From: Halalkalibacter suaedae
GTDB lineage: Bacteria; Bacillota; Bacilli; Bacillales; Bacillaceae_D
Direction: 5' to 3'
Length of the DNA stretch: 64,000 bases
Assembly: GCF_017939705.1 (NCBI RefSeq)
Contig: NZ_JAGKSQ010000002.1
Coordinates: 496,001-560,000, forward strand
This document shows, piece by piece, positions 3,533-63,775 of this stretch. The number at the start of each line of letters is the position of its first letter. Position 1 is the stretch's first letter. The notes below the pieces were generated by a model. It saw only the letters and a list, made by a program, of their open reading frames with translations, did no database searches and had not been told where the DNA came from. The translations under genes and the position numbers were made by a program.

Positions 3533-3587
3533 TATAATAATGACCATATAGTTCTATAGGACTATATGGTCATTATTATATTTTTTT
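3533..3587 (+). terminator. 20-bp perfect hairpin plus T7 directly in front of the GGDEF-EAL start
   Basis: Arms 3533-3552 and 3561-3580 are exact reverse complements (20 bp) around an 8-base loop, followed by seven Ts. It has the form of an intrinsic terminator for csaA, but its U-tract touches the start region of the next gene. A TATAAT occurs inside the left arm (3533-3538). It could therefore be an attenuator or an operator for the downstream cyclic-di-GMP gene rather than only a terminator. Confidence 0.75.
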
Positions 3588-3597
3588 GAAAGTTGGG

Positions 3598-6234
3598 ATG
3601 AGTGTGGAGCACGAACATCATCGAAAAACACTAATCTTCATTTTATTATACATAGTAATCTATTATACACTCATCTTGTTTGGCACAGGTAATGAACCAT
3701 TTTACATTATTAGTCGTAACTTAATGTCAACTTCCGCGGCGTTCATTGCTGCAATTTGGCTTACTCGAGCTTTTAAAACGACTGTTTCAATCGAAAGAAT
3801 TGTATGGTTTTGGCTATCACTAGGATGTTGGAGTTATTTTGCTGCAGAGTTAATTTGGATGTATTACGAAAGTTTTCTACGGACAGAAGTCCCTTTTCCA
3901 GGTTTAACCGATCTTTTTTACATGCTACAAATTCTATTTTATTTAATTGCATTCTCACGTTATCAATTTATCGTAAAAAGATTTTCTAGAATCTTACATC
4001 TTATTTTTGAAATTGTTATTGTGATGATTGTTATCGCAACATTTAGCTATTATTTCATTATCGAACATCAAATGAATAATCCAGAATTAACCGGTTTATT
4101 TTTATTTATATCAATTGGTTATCCTGTTGGTGATCTATTTTTAATATTTGCTGCAGTAACTCTATTTTGCACTGTAAAAGAAAGTGCAGTGAAAAGAGGA
4201 TTCTTAATTATATTAATTGCAGTAATCATTCAAACAGTAGCTGATTCGAGTTATATGTATCTTCTACTTAATAATAATTACCATACAGGAAGTTTAATTG
4301 ATCCATTATTTAGCCTATCACTTCTTTTAATTGGTTATTCAGGAATTCATGCAAATGGGTCTATCACAAATAAAAAGATTGATGCCTTATTTTTGAAGTT
4401 TGATACCCTTAGAATTTTGCTTCCATATGTCGGTTCATTAGGGTTGGTTCTGTATATTATTTTAATGGATCGAGAACATCAAATCCTTACAATTGGTGGC
4501 TTTCTCTCAATCCTTTTAATAATTGTAAAGCAAATCTCTGTTCTATATAACAACAAACAATTATTAGGCCATCTTAATCGTAGTAATGAACGATTTCAAT
4601 CACTTTTTGATCATCATCCAGATGCAGTCGTATCTATTAATCTAAAAGGCGAATTAACTAGAGTTAATAATACTGCTGCGAAAATGGCGAACTGTTCTAA
4701 TGAAGATCTTATCGGCCTGCAATTTGATTCCTTTTTCGAGGGCGAAGATCTGCTAAAGGTAAGGAAGCATTTTCATTTATCTTGTCAAGGTGATGATCAA
4801 CATTTCGAGGTGAAAATTAAGAAGCCTAATGGAAAAAGGCGAAACCTCCTACTGACGAATATTCCAATGTATGAAGATAATCAAATTGTGGGCATTTTTG
4901 GAATTACCAAGGATGTCACTGATATTAAGAGAAATGAAAAGAGAATTAATTACTTAGCGTATCATGACTCTCTAACAGGCTTAGCCAATCGTGCTTATTT
5001 CGAAAATTCATTAGACTTAATGATCGCTGAATCAAAACAGGATGGGATCGGTTTTGCAGTTATACTCATTGATTTTGATCGATTTAAAATTATTAATGAC
5101 ACACTTGGTCATGATGCCGGGGATCAATTACTTATTGCCATTGCAGAACGATTCATCTCTTTAACAGAGCATAAAGCACTTGTGGCAAGACAAGGTGGAG
5201 ATGAATTTTCTCTATTAGTTAAAGGCACGAAATCAGATGTAATTGAATTATTAGATAAAATAATGACTGGTTTAAACAAGCCACATAAAATCAAAGGAAA
5301 TATTTTTATTACAACCGCTAGTATAGGAGTTTCATATAGTTCAAATGGGATTGAAACTGCTGTAGATGTATTAAAAAAGGCTGACATCGCCATGTACGCT
5401 TCAAAGAAAAACGGCAAAAATCAATATACTTTTTACGAGGAAGGTTTGGCTCAAGAATCCGAGAATCAATTATGGATTGAAAATGACTTATACCATGCCA
5501 TCAATAACAAAGAATTTCTATTATATTATCAGCCACAAATCGATTCGACAAATAGTAGAATCTATGGAGTTGAAGCTTTATTACGCTGGAATCATCCGAA
5601 ATACGGTATTCTTGCACCAGGTCAGTTTATTACAATTGCCGAAGAAACAAATATGATCTTACCGATTGGCGAATGGGTTCTGAGACAGGCATGCCTAGAA
5701 GGGAACAAGTGGCATGAATCAGGAGAATTACTTGAAATAGCAGTAAACATTTCACCAAAACAATTCCAATCACCCCATTTGATCAAGATGGTCGCAAATA
5801 TAATAGCGGAAACTGATTTCAATCCTAATTATTTAGTACTAGAAATCACAGAAGCCGTTGCAATGAATAACATCGACGAAACGGTCATTAAATTAAAAGA
5901 ATTAAAGGCCATGGGTATTCATATCTCGATTGATGATTTTGGAACGGGACATTCATCATTGTCGTATTTAGCCCAGTTACCATTTGATGAATTAAAAATT
6001 CCACGTGAGTTAGTGAACGAGCTTGGAAAGGAAACGCATAATGCCATTGTTTCAACAATTATTACATTAGCAGATAATCTAAAATTAAAAATAATAGCTG
6101 AGGGTGTTGAAACAAACGAACAAAAATCTATACTACAGAACATGAATTGCACTAATATGCAGGGATATTTATTTAGTAAACCTGTTTCAAGAGAAGATAT
6201 TGAACATTACTTTCAACAATTTAGTACTAATTAG
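3598..6234 (+). CDS. Membrane-anchored PAS-GGDEF-EAL cyclic-di-GMP protein
   Basis: A bifunctional-looking cyclic-di-GMP turnover protein of about 878 residues. The first 320 residues form roughly nine membrane segments, resembling the DUF4084-type sensor module seen in Bacillus cyclic-di-GMP proteins (recalled, moderate certainty). A PAS domain follows (about 330-445, RFQSLFDHHPDAVVSIN), then GGDEF (about 455-615, intact QGGDEFSLL) and EAL (about 630-875) with intact VEALLRW, NISPKQF, DDFGTGHSSL and AEGVET. Both catalytic motifs are preserved, so synthase and phosphodiesterase activity are both possible. The ATG at 3598 is used here; TTG at 3586 lies in the U-tract of the upstream hairpin, and neither start has a strong ribosome binding site. 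A family B repeat follows the gene. Confidence 0.9.
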   Translation: MSVEHEHHRKTLIFILLYIVIYYTLILFGTGNEPFYIISRNLMSTSAAFIAAIWLTRAFKTTVSIERIVWFWLSLGCWSYFAAELIWMYYESFLRTEVPFPGLTDLFYMLQILFYLIAFSRYQFIVKRFSRILHLIFEIVIVMIVIATFSYYFIIEHQMNNPELTGLFLFISIGYPVGDLFLIFAAVTLFCTVKESAVKRGFLIILIAVIIQTVADSSYMYLLLNNNYHTGSLIDPLFSLSLLLIGYSGIHANGSITNKKIDALFLKFDTLRILLPYVGSLGLVLYIILMDREHQILTIGGFLSILLIIVKQISVLYNNKQLLGHLNRSNERFQSLFDHHPDAVVSINLKGELTRVNNTAAKMANCSNEDLIGLQFDSFFEGEDLLKVRKHFHLSCQGDDQHFEVKIKKPNGKRRNLLLTNIPMYEDNQIVGIFGITKDVTDIKRNEKRINYLAYHDSLTGLANRAYFENSLDLMIAESKQDGIGFAVILIDFDRFKIINDTLGHDAGDQLLIAIAERFISLTEHKALVARQGGDEFSLLVKGTKSDVIELLDKIMTGLNKPHKIKGNIFITTASIGVSYSSNGIETAVDVLKKADIAMYASKKNGKNQYTFYEEGLAQESENQLWIENDLYHAINNKEFLLYYQPQIDSTNSRIYGVEALLRWNHPKYGILAPGQFITIAEETNMILPIGEWVLRQACLEGNKWHESGELLEIAVNISPKQFQSPHLIKMVANIIAETDFNPNYLVLEITEAVAMNNIDETVIKLKELKAMGIHISIDDFGTGHSSLSYLAQLPFDELKIPRELVNELGKETHNAIVSTIITLADNLKLKIIAEGVETNEQKSILQNMNCTNMQGYLFSKPVSREDIEHYFQQFSTN

Positions 6235-6526: not shown

Positions 6527-8026
6527 CTAACACCGATCAGCTGCTATTGGTAAAACAACCGTAACAGTTGTTCCTTCGTTAACAATACTAGCAAAACTAA
6601 TTGTACCATTATGTTCTTCGATAATTTTTCGAGAGATCATTAACCCAAGCCCAGTCCCTTTTTCTTTTGTCGTATAAAAAGGTTCCCCTAGTCGAGAGAG
6701 TCTCTCTTTTGAAATACCTATTCCCTCATCATCTACTATGACCACCAATTTTGTTCCTGTTTTTAAGATTGAAACTAATATATTGCCGCCCTTTGACATC
6801 ACATCGATTGAATTTTTGATAATATTTTTAAAAACCTGCTTAATTTGGTTACGATCACAACTAATCAGTGTTGTTGAAGTATTTACATCTATGCTTATCT
6901 TTACGTTTTTTAAAATCGCTTGTGTATTTAAGAGAACAATTACTTCTTTAATTAACTCGACCATATCATTTTTTTTGACTATTGGGATCTCAGGTTTAGC
7001 TAAATAAAGAAATTCATTAACGATTTCATTTACACGCTCTACTTCTGCCATAATAATATCATAGTAAAGATGATTCTCTTTAGCTGAACCCTTGAGCAAT
7101 TGAATAAATCCTTTAATGCCTGTTAATGGATTTCTAATCTCATGTGCTACCGCAGCTGCAAGCTGTCCAGCAAGTGAAAGCTTCTCTGAATTATGAATGA
7201 AATGCTCTACCTTTTTCTTATCAGTAACATCTCTAATTATGATTTGTTTTGCAGGTTCACCTCTATAAATCAAGGTCTGCTCCATTGCCTCAATATCAAG
7301 AAACTCTCCATTTTCCTGTTTCAATTTTCTTTCCATTACATTAACGGTATTCATCTGTTGACATGTCTTAATGATCTTTTGGTCATTATCAAATGTATCT
7401 TCAGAAACTAACAAACTAGAAATGTTCCTACCTATTAGATCTTGTTCATTGCTGACTCCGTGAAGAATGGCAGCTGCTGGATTAGCATAAAGCAGTTCCC
7501 CTTCTTTCTCAATAATGATACCATCAGGAGATTTTTCAACTAACTGACGATATAAGTTCTCCGAATTCTCTAACTCAATAAAATAGGAGAGAAATGTAGC
7601 CATTGATTGTAATAAGACAACCTCTTTATCTTGAAACGTATAAAGTGAAGTATCTATCGCACAAAGCGTCCCGAAAATTTCACCACTTTTTGTAATAATC
7701 GGTACTCCCAGAAAACTTTTTATATTTAATTCTTTTGTCACGTCCATTTTACTAGCAAGTGCGTGTTGAGATGTATCATTTATAATAACAGGGTCACGCC
7801 CTGTTCCAATTATACTTCAATAGGCATCCAAAAAATTCAACTGTGTTCCTGATTCAAACAATACCTCTTTACGGTGAAAAACACTATGTATCATACTCAT
7901 AACTTGGTTATTAGAAGCCACACAAAAGGTGTTGACATTCATTTGTTTGCTTAATACCTCTAAAATATGGTCAGCAGCTTCTTTAAGACTAGTATAAAAT
8001 TGATTTTCATTCTCAATTACTCTCAT
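6527..8026 (-). CDS. Selenocysteine-containing GAF-PAS sensor histidine kinase (UGA at 7817-7819 read as Sec70)
   Basis: A 499-residue soluble sensor kinase if the in-frame TGA at codon 70 is read through. The pieces on either side are in the same frame and together form one GAF domain (about 1-155): LDAY-U-SIIGTGRDPVIINDTSQ…, where related Bacillus GAF proteins have Cys at the U position (recalled alignment, DTYC). PAS follows (about 158-273), then a HisKA with H295 in VAHEIRNPL and a HATPase_c with N-box KNSIDVM and DDEGIGI. A perfect AGGAGGTG ribosome binding site lies before the ATG. A SECIS-like hairpin starts four bases after UGA. The gene lies downstream of bdbD-bdbC, a thiol-oxidation context. 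No partner response regulator is adjacent. The alternative, a nonsense mutation, is less likely because a paralogue at 61994 has UGA at the same residue. Confidence 0.85.
7782..7819 (-). promoter_or_regulatory. UGA codon plus SECIS-like hairpin of the Sec-GAF kinase
   Basis: On the minus strand the UGA (7819-7817) is followed by a hairpin with a 7-bp upper stem AACAGGG / CCCTGTT, loop CGTGA, and a lower ATAAT / ATTAT stem offset by a TGG bulge. The loop begins 19 bases after the UGA and has G as its second base, matching the general bacterial SECIS rules (short stem-loop directly 3' of UGA, G near the loop start). Confidence 0.75.
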
Positions 8027-8211: not shown

Positions 8212-8237
8212 AATAGCACATTAAAAAAAGTGCTATT
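8212..8237 (-). terminator. Terminator of bdbDC
   Basis: AATAGCAC / GTGCTATT stem with an AT-rich loop, overlapping the bdbC stop codon, followed on the minus strand by a run of Ts. Confidence 0.8.
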
Positions 8238-8661
8238 CTCTCGAGTTTTTTATAGTTGAACTGGCCAGAGACATGAAAAGTATGATTAGTGAGAATGCGA
8301 CAAGAGCTAGAAATGGTATCGTTATAAAACCAAAAAAGTTAATATATTGAGCATTGCATGGTACTCCACTAACACATGGTCTGATTGGTGCAAAACCAGG
8401 TATCTTCTGTATTAAATAATGATATAAGGAAATAATCCAACCAACCATTGCGAGTGGTAATACATATTTTCTTATTGTGAAATCACTTTTAAATGTAGCA
8501 ATCCCCAATATAAGTGACAAAGGATACATCAAGATCCGCTGATACCAACATAGATCACAAGGAACAAACCCTAGTATTTCACTAAAATACAAGCTTCCTA
8601 AGGTTGCTACAAGTGATACGAGCCAAGCGGAGTACAAAAATAATGGTTTGTTTATATTCAT
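8233..8661 (-). CDS. bdbC: Disulfide bond formation protein BdbC (DsbB family)
   Basis: A 142-residue quinone-linked membrane oxidase that reoxidises BdbD. Four membrane helices are visible. The first cysteine pair is CDLC in the first extracytoplasmic loop (VPCDLCWYQRILMYP is the family signature) and the second pair is in PCVSGVPC between helices 3 and 4. Length and motifs fit Gram-positive BdbC. The gene begins one base after the bdbD stop, so the two are translationally coupled. In Bacilli this pair makes disulfides in exported proteins, including competence and other surface proteins. Confidence 0.93.
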   Translation of the reverse strand: MNINKPLFLYSAWLVSLVATLGSLYFSEILGFVPCDLCWYQRILMYPLSLILGIATFKSDFTIRKYVLPLAMVGWIISLYHYLIQKIPGFAPIRPCVSGVPCNAQYINFFGFITIPFLALVAFSLIILFMSLASSTIKNSRE

Positions 8662-8662
8662 A

Positions 8663-9343
8663 TTACTCGTGTTCCTGTAATTCTTCTTCTATTATACTTT
8701 TAATCATCTCGTAATCAAAGGGATCTTCAACAACCTTTTCATTAATCATGACGGTCGGTGTTGACGTAACATTATATTCATTTACAAGCTGAGTATCTTT
8801 ATTAACCTCGGCAATCTCATCCTGCTGTTCAATGCTTTCTCTTAATAATGATGAATCTAATGATGGGATCCCATTGGCAATATCCACGACTGCATCAATT
8901 GTTAACCAAAGATTATCATGGTTTTGACTTTCAGGTTGTGCTTCAAATAATTGTTTATGGAATGTCCAATAATCAGAAGGTGATTGTTTTAAGACAGACT
9001 CCGCTGCTAATGACCCTATTTCAGATTCCTCACCGTGAAACAATACATTAACATATGAAAAGTTGACCGAACCATTATTAATATACTCTTCTTCTAAAAG
9101 TGGCAATACCGCTTCTCCCCAGGCTTTACAGCTTGGACATTTAAAGTCACCAAACTCGACTACAGATACAGGTGCATCGACATTTCCTAAAAGTGGCTGT
9201 CCACTAATCGGGGGTTGTTCATCAAAAACCACGGCTTCAGGTGTTGTAGAGTAATTTTTAAGTAAGATTAATAACGTTAAAATAATAATAATTCCTAATG
9301 TAAGGACTACAGCCATTTTCATAGGTGATGTTGTTTTATTCAT
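8663..9343 (-). CDS. bdbD: Thiol-disulfide oxidoreductase BdbD (DsbA-like)
   Basis: A 226-residue membrane-anchored thioredoxin-fold oxidase. An N-terminal anchor helix (about residues 9-29) is followed by an extracellular DsbA-like domain starting at QPLLGNVDAPVSVVEFGDFKCPSC, with active-site motif CPSC and the helical insert typical of DsbA proteins. The cis-proline loop is visible as TSTPTVMINEKVV. It is first in the bdbD-bdbC operon and oxidises exported proteins with BdbC as its electron acceptor. The sequence is complete. Confidence 0.93.
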   Translation of the reverse strand: MNKTTSPMKMAVVLTLGIIIILTLLILLKNYSTTPEAVVFDEQPPISGQPLLGNVDAPVSVVEFGDFKCPSCKAWGEAVLPLLEEEYINNGSVNFSYVNVLFHGEESEIGSLAAESVLKQSPSDYWTFHKQLFEAQPESQNHDNLWLTIDAVVDIANGIPSLDSSLLRESIEQQDEIAEVNKDTQLVNEYNVTSTPTVMINEKVVEDPFDYEMIKSIIEEELQEHE

Positions 9344-60324: not shown

Positions 60325-61833
60325 TTATTTAGGTAGTTTCTTTTGTTTAAAATATAGCCCTAATTCTTTCTTCTCTTTCGCTAACGATTTGTACAGCGAG
60401 AGCATCATCAGTAGCATAATAAAAGAAAACGGAAATGCTGCTGCAATTAAGGCATTCTGTAATGCTTGAAGCCCACCGCTATATAACAAAATTAAAGCAA
60501 CTGCAGATTGGGCAACACCCCATGTTAGCTTAACGGAATTAGGTGGGGTTAATGAACCATTTGTCGTTTGCATCCCGAGCACAAAAGTCGCCGAATCTGC
60601 TGATGTAATAAAGAATGTACTAATTAACGTGACAGCAACAATTGAAAGCAATGCCGACCATGGAAACTCATTAAAGATCGCAAATAACACTTCTTCAGTC
60701 GCAAATTGTGTCAAATCAACTCCTGAATTTTGAACCTCAATCGCAGCCGTACCAAAGACAGCAAACCATAGAAAGCTGACAAGTGCCGGAAGCAGCAGTA
60801 CACCAATTATGAATTCACGAATCGTTCGGCCTCGTGAAACACGTGCAATGAAAATCCCGACAAATGGTGACCACGAAATCCACCAAGCCCAATAGAAAAT
60901 CGTCCAACCATTGATCCAAGATCGATGCCCTTCATCTAATGGAGCAATTCGGAAACTCATTCTTGCTAAGCTTTGTAGATAAGTTCCTATTGTATCTGTG
61001 AACATATTTAAACTAAGAATTGTTGGTCCAGCAAAGAAAACGAGTAAAAATAAGGCGATAGCCAAAACCATATTTGTATTACTTAAGTACTTGATTCCTT
61101 TTCCTAACCCTGACCATGCAGAAATCATGAATAAAACAGTGACAACAGCTATGATAATAAATTGAACAGTGAAATTATTAGGTACACCTAATAAATATGA
61201 AAGTCCACCATTTATTTGTGCAGCACCAAAACCAAGTGTTGTAGCGACCCCAACGACTGTTGCAAATACAGCAATGACATCAACGACAACACCAAGAGGT
61301 CCCTCCATGCTTTTTCCGAGTACAGGCTTTAATGTTGCTGAGATGAGGCCAGGTTCACCTTTACGAAATTTAAAATAAGCTAGTGCTAATGCAACAAGAG
61401 CATAAATACCCCAAGCATGAATACCCCAATGGAAAAAGGTATATCTCATCGCTTCCTTATATGCTTCATTCGTTCCACCTTCGGCTAAGGGAGGTGTCAT
61501 AAAATGAGAAAGCGGCTCAGCAGCACCCCAAAAGACAAGTCCAATCCCCATACCCGCACTAAATAACATCGCGAACCAGGTCCGCTTTGTATATTCAGGT
61601 TCTTCATCTGGTTTCCCTAATTTAATCGCACCTACAGGACTAAAAATCAGGAAAATACAGAAAATAACAATCGTTGTAACTAAGATAAGATAATACCAAC
61701 CAAATGAAGTCGTAATAAACCCTTGTAGATTACCAGTCAGATCTTCAAAGCCTTGAGGTGCAATAACCCCAAAGATTACAGCAATCGCCACAAGGACAAT
61801 AGTAATCCAAAACACATTAGATACTTTATTCAT
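60325..61833 (-). CDS. BCCT-family glycine betaine/choline-type transporter (OpuD-like)
   Basis: A 502-residue betaine-carnitine-choline transporter with 12 helices. The compatible-solute signature is clear: [29 protein letters not shown] (parts), [18 protein letters not shown] and [13 protein letters not shown]. It imports a trimethylammonium osmolyte with Na+ for osmoprotection. The Trp-rich helix supports betaine-type substrate. AGGGAGTG precedes the ATG. Closest in type to OpuD of Bacillus; exact substrate uncertain. Confidence 0.93.
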
Positions 61834-61993: not shown

Positions 61994-63727
61994 CTACTGC
62001 TGATTGGCTAACTCTAAAATATCTGCAAATGGCATCGGTCTTCCAAGTAAAAACCCTTGAAATTCATCACAACCTAGTTCTTCTAAGAACCTCATCTGTT
62101 CATTTGTCTCAATGCCTTCACCAACGACTTGAAGCTCAAGAGCATGTGCCATCATAATGACAGCACCGACAATCGTTGCCTGTTTCTTATCTGCTGTCAA
62201 GTCTGTTGTAAAGGAGCGATCAAGTTTAACACTATCCATTGGTAATGTTCGTAAATAACTTAAAGACGAGTACCCCGTACCAAAATCATCAATGGCTATT
62301 TGCACACCTAATGACTTCATTTGCTCTAGTATTGAAATTGTATCAGCTATATCAAGAATCGCAATATTTTCTGTGATTTCAAGAGTAAGCATTGAAGGTG
62401 CTAGATTCGTGACTTCTAATATTTTCTTGACCTTCTCAACCAGATGATTTTCCTCAAATTGCCTCACCGACAAATTAACTGCTACTTTAACATCGGTTAT
62501 CCCACGATTCATAAGTTCTTTCACATCCCGACAAGCAGTCTCTAGGACAAATTGGCCAATTTCTAGAATCAATCCGTTTTCCTCTGCCATCGGAATGAAT
62601 TCAGCAGGTGGAATGGGGCCATTAATAGGATCATTCCAGCGGACTAACGCTTCCATTCCAATGAATTTCTTCTGCATATTAAATTGGGGCTGGTAATAAA
62701 CCTCCAATGCCTTATCTTCCACTGCTCTTGATAAATCGTTCGTCAAAGCACATTTTCTATTCACTTCAACATTCATGTTCTGATTAAAATATTGATAATT
62801 ATTCCTACCATTTGCCTTCGCTTCATACATAGCAATCTCTGCATGTTTGATTAAATCATTGAAGTCACTTCCGTCATCAGGGTAAAAGCTTATACCAATA
62901 CTCGCCTTCGTAAACAACGCCTGCCCGTTCACATGGAATGGTTTTGTAAAGCGATTCATCAATGAAGCAAGACTTATTTCTAGATTCTTAGAAGCTCTTT
63001 CAAAAGGAAGTACAAGCACAAACTCATCACCGCCATACCTAGCAATGACCCCATCCTCGCCAATCTCCTTTTTGATATGCTCCCCAATTGTAGCAAGTAA
63101 TTGGTTTCCGACTGAATAACCTAAGGTATCATTAATATATTTAAATTGGTCTAAATCAAAATAAATGACTGAAAATGAAGATCGTTCTTCTTTTACTAAC
63201 TCACCTATATAGGTCGAGGTAAATGCATTATTATAAAGTCCTGTTGCCACATCATGGATCGACGTGTATTCTAAGTCGATTAAATATCCCAGAAACGAAG
63301 CCATATTTGTAATTGTTTCAATATCATCACTTGAAAAAGGAAAAGTCTCTTGTTTTAAAACACATAACGTCCCAAAGATCATCCCATTTTTCAGAACAAT
63401 CGGCACACCTAAATAAGCACCGATCCCTAAATAAGTAATCGGAAGGTTTGATACAAACTCATGCTGCGATGTATTTTCTATAATTAATGGCTCACGGCCA
63501 TCTGGATAGAGAAGCTGTCAATAAGCATCTCGCAAAGGCTTTCGCTCTCTCTCAACAAAATTAACCTGATTTTCTCCATAAACTTTTAAAACAGAGAACC
63601 ATTCTTCATCAATATGCGAGACAAAATACGTGCCATGTCCAATCATTTTGCTAAGTGTTTTCAACATATTTGTAGCTGCTTGATCAAACATCTTGTAATA
63701 CGCTATGTCAGAATACGAAATATACAA
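61994..63727 (-). CDS. Selenocysteine-containing GAF-GGDEF-EAL cyclic-di-GMP protein (UGA at 63518-63520 read as Sec70)
   Basis: A soluble protein of about 577 residues if the TGA is read through. The GAF domain spans the UGA: LRDAY-U-QLLYPDGREPLIIENTSQH…GAYLGVPIVLKNGMIFGTLC. It matches the GAF of the kinase at 6527, where UGA is also residue 70 (DAY-U). GGDEF follows (about 165-325, intact ARYGGDEFVLV, no RxxD inhibitory site seen) and EAL (about 335-575, MEALVRW, DDFGTGYSSL, GEGIET intact). I chose TTG at 63727, with GGAGAG upstream, because it gives the same N-terminal length as the kinase; ATG at 63757 is possible but lacks a site. A hairpin follows the UGA. A frameshift or dead gene is disfavoured by the matching position. 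Confidence 0.85.
63487..63520 (-). promoter_or_regulatory. UGA codon plus SECIS-like hairpin of the GAF-GGDEF-EAL gene
   Basis: On the minus strand the UGA (63520-63518) is followed by arms ATGGC / GCCAT (5 bp, plus a G-T pair) with loop CGTGA, the same loop as at 7794-7798. The loop starts 22 bases after the UGA. Confidence 0.7.
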
Positions 63728-63775
63728 AAATACTCTCCTACTTTCGATCACTATCATCTAGTTGTTTTATTCATT

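Follow-up and report, generated by a model that had tools for sequence, protein, structure and literature searches.

We hold with high confidence that the GAF-GGDEF-EAL gene near one end of the window (the whole stretch of 64,000 nucleotides of Halalkalibacter suaedae DNA analyzed here) encodes a selenoprotein whose in-frame UGA is decoded through SelB, and that the resulting selenocysteine (Sec) is most likely the signal-meeting residue of a GAF domain that steers a cyclic-di-GMP (c-di-GMP) output. Judged from sequence, the TGA-bearing GAF proteins as a class are very probably selenoproteins, because the TGA aligns with Cys in TGA-less relatives, the hairpin that follows it covaries, the coding sequence is constrained and SelB co-occurs with the TGA form. 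Sec at this codon had been proposed in a first-pass annotation of the window, and hairpin covariation, SelB, the Sec machinery of the genome and the retention of the TGA support that proposal well. We also lean towards a wider view, in which selenium would be a general signaling element in Bacillaceae-type bacteria: one Sec-GAF module would feed two-component, c-di-GMP and partner-switching (SpoIIE/STAS) outputs, with repeated Sec-Cys swaps, and would constitute, as far as our searches reach, the first selenoprotein class with a sensing Sec.

The interrupted gene and its paralogues

The frame 63760-61994 on the reverse strand contains exactly one TGA and translates as RKPLRDAY-U-QLLYPDGREPLII when that TGA is taken as a residue, with the motifs RYGGDEF, MEALVRW and DDFGTG further downstream. 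Motifs of this type matter for diguanylate cyclase and phosphodiesterase activity, and both activities are predicted for the product from its GGDEF and EAL sequence motifs. The Pfam matches to GAF_2 (34.2 bits), GAF (33.6 bits), GGDEF (138.4 bits) and EAL (244.8 bits) are all above cut-off, in agreement with the earlier suggestion that a single frame runs from GAF through a TGA after DAY into GGDEF and EAL. The GAF domain modeled with AlphaFold2, with Cys replacing Sec, gave a pLDDT of 85.6 and a pTM of 0.83, and its assignment is supported by the Pfam scores, by the GAF fold of the model and by best PDB matches that are GAF proteins; single-sequence structure prediction of the full-length protein reached a pLDDT of only 37.3. 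The TGA is codon 70, because a TTG start is preceded by AGGAGAG (reported previously as GGAGAG) and ATG occupies this position in the relative L027. A mechanical list of open reading frames begins the gene only past the TGA, at GTG 63406, as a 470-aa ORF, which may show how such genes escape annotation. Gene callers seem to cut such sensors in two, so that mis-annotation may be widespread among the GAF sensors of Sec-using Bacillaceae. The features of the target gene, its sister gene in the window and the further copies in the genome are given below.

61994..63727, reverse strand: Sec-GAF gene (GAF-GGDEF-EAL, 577 residues) with a single in-frame TGA at codon 70 and GGDEF and EAL motifs
63733..63739, reverse strand: ribosome-binding site AGGAGAG, ahead of the TTG start at 63727-63725 (ATG there in L027)
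63278..63685, reverse strand: GAF domain, Pfam GAF_2 match and AlphaFold2 domain model
63518..63520, reverse strand: TGA codon 70, probably read as selenocysteine, aligned with Cys of TGA-less relatives
63486..63502, reverse strand: SECIS-type hairpin GATGGC-CGTGA-GCCATT, 6 bp, loop 21 nt past the TGA, MFE −9.8 kcal/mol
63362..63364, reverse strand: second conserved Cys, residue 122, in FGTLC, a possible partner of Sec
62798..63259, reverse strand: GGDEF domain (Pfam)
62036..62740, reverse strand: EAL domain (Pfam)
6527..8026, reverse strand: sister Sec-GAF gene, GAF-PAS-HisKA-HATPase (Pfam), single frame with one TGA
7817..7819, reverse strand: TGA codon 70 of the sister gene, in the frame from ATG 8026
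7787..7805, reverse strand: SECIS-type hairpin of the sister gene, AACAGGG-CGTGA-CCCTGTT, with its loop 18 nt past the TGA, MFE −12.1 kcal/mol
C25:3716, elsewhere in the genome: GAF-GGDEF-GAF-GGDEF with one TGA (Pfam, up to the end of the stretch examined)
C11:633604, elsewhere in the genome: GAF-kinase with one TGA (Pfam)
C22:447201, elsewhere in the genome: GAF-SpoIIE without TGA, Cys at the site (Pfam)

The sister gene in 8026-6527 starts at an ATG with AAGGAGG upstream and confirms the claim that an independent second gene has a like structure with UGA at codon 70 in both. The homologous position of the two UGA codons stands, as they occupy the same alignment column, while their equal codon number owes something to where the two starts happen to lie. 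With the target GAF stretch as query against the whole genome, five matches were found, four of them with one TGA each; the small family of Sec-GAF sensors that had been envisaged is a family with different outputs, but it comprises four genes in this genome rather than two and is large overall.

Genes resembling those for DsbB and DsbA lie directly upstream of the sister kinase gene on the same strand (window 8233-9343, reverse strand), and a PAS-GGDEF-EAL gene with an uninterrupted frame lies near it (window 3586-6234, forward strand). Conserved neighborhood was considered as a clue to the signal and rejected, the DsbA/DsbB-like genes being found by tblastn only at the copies of this genome among loci L013-L148, a set in which short flanks are common. 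A BCCT transporter gene adjoins the target gene (window 60325-61833, reverse strand) and is also present in the flanks of closely related Sec-GAF loci (L076-L078, L080-L082, L084, L127, L128, L138, L140 and L145); most of the BCCT-flanked Sec-GAF frames are ~280-310 aa long, which is also the size range of the GAF-STAS proteins scanned.

Sec insertion is available in this genome, because SelA (562 bits), SelB (358.8 bits, cut-off 242.25), tRNA-Sec (anticodon tca) and SelD (407.4 bits) are all there. SelD (L157, G000:C29:98676-99605) has one in-frame TGA within a UGCK motif, and the fold after this TGA is unlike the hairpins of the GAF genes. Formate dehydrogenase was considered as a further selenoprotein and rejected, its sole match being without TGA and below cut-off. 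Downstream, selB is followed by a glycosyltransferase-like gene and then by a PhnDEC-type ABC transporter (L150, 10007-12522, G000:C29) that may import selenium oxyanions; its binding protein scored 166.2 bits against a model for a putative selenate transporter, under the cut-off of 250 bits.

The residue at the TGA site and the hairpin that follows

We compared 96 distinct loci, 65 bearing a TGA and 31 TGA-less, after five duplicate copies of own-genome loci had been dropped ahead of counting; the 65 are all TGA rows among the matches listed (18 plus 47 further), and the 31 are a sample. An unrelated residue at this site in homologues had been named beforehand as the observation that would speak against Sec. 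The TGA site is aligned with Cys in all 31 TGA-less rows (called by a script that accepts a Cys up to 14 positions away from the column, with aligned rows checked by eye), and Gly is found at the site in the broken copy L171, which lies outside this set. A second Cys in an FGTLC-type motif is present in 64 of the 65 TGA rows, L095 being the exception, and in 31/31 TGA-less rows.

The motif GR[ED]P follows the site in 63/65 TGA rows versus 0/31 TGA-less rows. All 64 TGA rows with R[ED] use CGG or CGT for the Arg, and six of the eight TGA-less rows with R[ED] use AGA or AGG, codons that would destroy the CG(G/T)GA loop of the hairpin. In the innermost pair of the hairpin, the third bases of the Gly and Glu/Asp codons are joined, and for this reason the protein reads GREP or GRDP. 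The RNA hairpin thereby accounts for a motif that would otherwise pass as a functional protein signature.

In section 5 of PMC13188914 the bSECIS rule is given as a loop of 3-9 nt with G in the first two positions, a stem of at least 4 bp, a distance of 16-37 nt from the UGA and an MFE of −7.5 or lower. The four TGA-bearing genes of this genome have a CGTGA or CGGGA loop, spaced 21 nt from the TGA in three and 18 nt in the sister gene, and MFE values of −9.8, −12.1, −10.0 and −7.3 kcal/mol; by the rule of that section, the target hairpin falls within the limits and L040 (−7.3) just misses the MFE limit. When the rows were folded under the same rule, a conforming hairpin was found in 49/65 TGA rows (41/65 with the MFE limit) against 6/31 TGA-less rows (2/31 with the limit). 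Taken singly the hairpins are modest: for the two in the window, z against dinucleotide shuffles ranges from −0.6 to −2.1 depending on the length folded, and in 5000 trials of random synonymous coding for the four own genes, a stem as long arose in 0.7-4.9% and an MFE as low in 1.8-22.8%. It is the family-wide evidence that counts.

Across the family, CG(G/T)GA with three or more complementary bases on either side follows the TGA in 64/65 TGA rows, 32 with each form of the loop, at a spacing of 21 nt in 58 rows, 18 nt in four and 24 nt in two. L089, which has no CG(G/T)GA loop, was left out of the stem counts. The three innermost pairs are Watson-Crick in 64/64 anchored rows, and for the innermost pair (47 T-A, 9 C-G, 5 G-C and 3 A-T) the 64 matches compare with 36.3 on average, and never more than 45, in 2000 shuffles. 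After removal of repeated hairpins, 44 of the 64 were kept, and in these 44 different hairpins 96.6% of the cells of the six-pair helix are paired, with a covariation score of 0.631 versus 0.219 when shuffled and 52 double-change cells versus 11.4. The observed values for pairing, double-changed pairs, double-changed cells and covariation score were each reached by 0/500 shuffles, in tests that kinship among the rows inflates, although this hairpin also turns up in genes outside the order (L166-L169); the remaining one of the five covariation measures, further pair types, was not raised (12 versus 11.3, reached by 214/500 shuffles). Sliding the partner strand by 1-3 columns lowers pairing to 29-65%. 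In L095, AAC-CGTGA-GTT replaces GGN-CGNGA-NCC, so that the protein reads NREL and the stem is kept by double changes.

A D-x-Y-TGA-hairpin pattern, built from these genes and missing the sister gene, whose hairpin sits 3 nt nearer to the TGA, has one match in the window and none in 100 shuffles. Rfam at gathering thresholds gave no match in the window. L089 itself (G166:C53) encodes a GAF-GGDEF-EAL protein and has the TGA but not the common loop; its GGCGACGGTCAGCC stretch could form another type of hairpin.

Distribution, selection and the decoding of the TGA

In a sample of 299 genomes of the order, the family was matched in 136 and the TGA form was found in at least 41, and SelB scored above cut-off in 137 of the 299. 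Among the matches listed, SelB is above cut-off in 40/41 TGA genomes versus 26/95 other family-bearing genomes (Fisher p 1.5e-15), where the TGA counts are minima and further TGA forms may be present among the 95. In the remaining TGA genome, G213, SelB is represented by a 67-bit fragment in a frame that runs off the contig end. At least five Sec-GAF copies are present in G098. Within the genus of the target, SelB is not above cut-off in G003 and the family is not matched there; G007 and G011 have SelB and no family match at E ≤ 1e-8; and in G008 the SelB match is in two pieces with a TGA inside (G008:C1:627104-628961), possibly a loss in progress or an assembly error, and the GAF matches are TGA-less only. 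Four genomes outside the order carry TGA forms in a class sample of 398 genomes, 88 of which gave a match; in a phylum sample, likewise of 398 genomes but with 7 matching at E ≤ 1e-20, the TGA is found only in the H. suaedae genome itself. The D-x-Y-TGA-hairpin pattern gave 24 matches in a named-genome collection, all 24 being TGA-bearing GAF genes, in records of Alkalihalobacillus, Alkalihalobacterium, Halalkalibacter, Rossellomorea, Pseudalkalibacillus, Salibacterium, Alkalicoccus, Aquibacillus, Sutcliffiella and Bacillus sp. The module occurs in Bacillaceae-type bacteria, whose names in many cases point to alkaliphiles or halophiles.

The TGA is retained in 14/14 pairs of relatives, which were hand-picked with one locus used twice. 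In these pairs dN/dS is 0.06-0.16 after the TGA (12/14 pairs computable) and 0.01-0.24 before it (11/14 computable, the rest saturated), so that an in-frame UGA is flanked on both sides by coding sequence under selection, as is characteristic of a selenoprotein. On a tree of 96 GAF rows (149 columns, 20 of 92 inner branches open) Sec and Cys switch 10 times, with at least seven switches forced by well-supported branches. Pfam scans of 19 of the 65 TGA-bearing proteins gave histidine kinase (3), PAS-kinase (2), GGDEF-EAL (4), GGDEF (3), GAF-GGDEF (2), GAF-GGDEF-GAF-GGDEF (1), SpoIIE (2) and STAS (2) outputs. The idea that a Sec-GAF module is joined to different outputs therefore holds, with at least seven architectures among the proteins scanned.

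These data bear on whether the UGA is read as Sec at all. Were it a true stop, the upstream part would be dead or encode a short peptide and the product would be the 470-aa ORF from GTG 63406, and it is only this post-TGA part that the mechanical ORF list gives. We find that reading very improbable, since dN is well under dS upstream of the TGA as well (11 computable pairs), the hairpin covaries, and the internal stops in the listed rows of the TGA search are every one TGA; in-frame TAA stops were seen in L170, L171 and L172 of the class sample, at three different positions and none at the TGA site, and these are ordinary broken genes. Such broken relatives are also what can be cited for a pseudogene, a nonsense mutation or a sequencing error, with nothing in its favor for the target gene itself. 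This explanation has a negligible probability and was ruled out by the TGA shared at the same site by 65 loci in SelB-bearing genomes, by a frame that stays open beyond the GAF domain and is constrained downstream, and by the covarying RNA stem, in accord with the original argument that a shared UGA position speaks against random nonsense mutation. Near-cognate readthrough of UGA occurs in Bacillus, and the codon might in that way be read as Trp or Cys; against this, SelB co-occurs with the TGA form, the SECIS-type hairpin covaries and SelD of the same genome uses TGA too, which together make it extremely improbable.

Proposed mechanism and comparison with known systems

In the mechanism that we propose, SelB on the hairpin just after the UGA would deliver Sec-tRNA(Sec), and translation would run on through GAF into GGDEF and EAL. 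The selenolate would most likely be the reactive residue of the GAF domain that meets the signal, which could be an oxidant or electrophile, for example peroxide, persulfide or a metalloid. Modification of Sec, perhaps through a Se-S bond to Cys122, the conserved Cys on the GTLC strand, would shift the GAF fold, and the altered fold would change the output, in the target protein c-di-GMP synthesis or breakdown. A Se-S bond is not specifically indicated, because the partner Cys is equally conserved without TGA and is missing in L095, and the link of Cys122 to Sec is accordingly weak. Selenol-dependent control of c-di-GMP turnover is plausible, and Sec may act as an oxidant or electrophile sensor that tunes c-di-GMP.

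Two other roles for the residue leave Sec insertion in place. The codon could report selenium status, low selenium leading to a stop after 69 codons and no output protein, so that Sec itself need not sense anything; this property holds in principle for every UGA-Sec gene, and the output domain does lie downstream of the UGA in the 19 scanned proteins. The TGA is, however, at a Cys site within the GAF domain and not just anywhere upstream, and a TGA-less form with SpoIIE output, which some TGA forms share, exists in the same genome. We regard this account as unlikely, and such gating can operate alongside Sec sensing. Alternatively, Sec could be a ligand to a metal, a metalloid or a small molecule, the GAF domain sensing that ligand and not redox state, which is possible if doubtful. 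Heme and bilin binders (DosS/DosT and cyanobacteriochromes) are among the solved GAF neighbors in the fold search, and section 7 of PMC13188914 reports metal contacts predicted for a share of selenoproteins; on the other side, a metal- or metalloid-resistance Pfam name was found for 0/17 ORFs scanned near the own-genome genes.

The reading favored here, a Sec that meets the signal, would add signal-transduction proteins to selenium biology and would make Sec and Cys comparable in a sensor. The benefit of Sec over Cys is testable, because GAF paralogues of either kind coexist in one genome.

Table 1 of PMC13188914 (2026) covers 119 bacterial selenoprotein families or subfamilies and has no GAF, histidine-kinase, GGDEF, EAL, SpoIIE or STAS entry, the nearest entries being an FmdB-family protein with a putative regulatory role and a protein resembling selenoprotein O. 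Like the selenoproteins cataloged in that table, the GAF proteins carry an in-frame UGA in the place of a Cys, followed by a bSECIS-like hairpin, in a genome that encodes the Sec machinery; the text of the article nowhere uses the terms 'gaf', 'sensor', 'ggdef' or 'histidine kinase'. Redox control of c-di-GMP turnover is described for PdeC, CdgF and HmsCD, which, unlike Sec-GAF, use periplasmic disulfides or flavin-PAS domains, and no word beginning with 'selen' occurs in the review that describes them (PMC8846402). In the literature searched, with most subscription papers outside its scope, no report was recognized on selenoproteins with GAF, histidine-kinase, diguanylate-cyclase or other signal-transduction roles, in Bacillaceae or elsewhere. 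Among the best 25 matches per protein in NCBIfam release 20.0 there was no selenoprotein model, and only a GGDEF domain model was above cut-off.

Free methionine-R-sulfoxide reductase has a redox-active Cys and is a stand-alone enzyme without an output domain, unlike the Sec-GAF proteins; it has a GAF fold (PDB 4mmn) and ranked 38 in the fold search, and it is not among the 25 profile matches. The best solved match is the GAF domain of Dcsbis, a diguanylate cyclase from Pseudomonas aeruginosa (PDB 4zmu; profile E 1.2e-7, fold E 1.2e-8), in which a Cys (SFCGHAI) is aligned with the Sec of the target and a GTLC motif is present, so that it differs from the target at this site by Cys for Sec.
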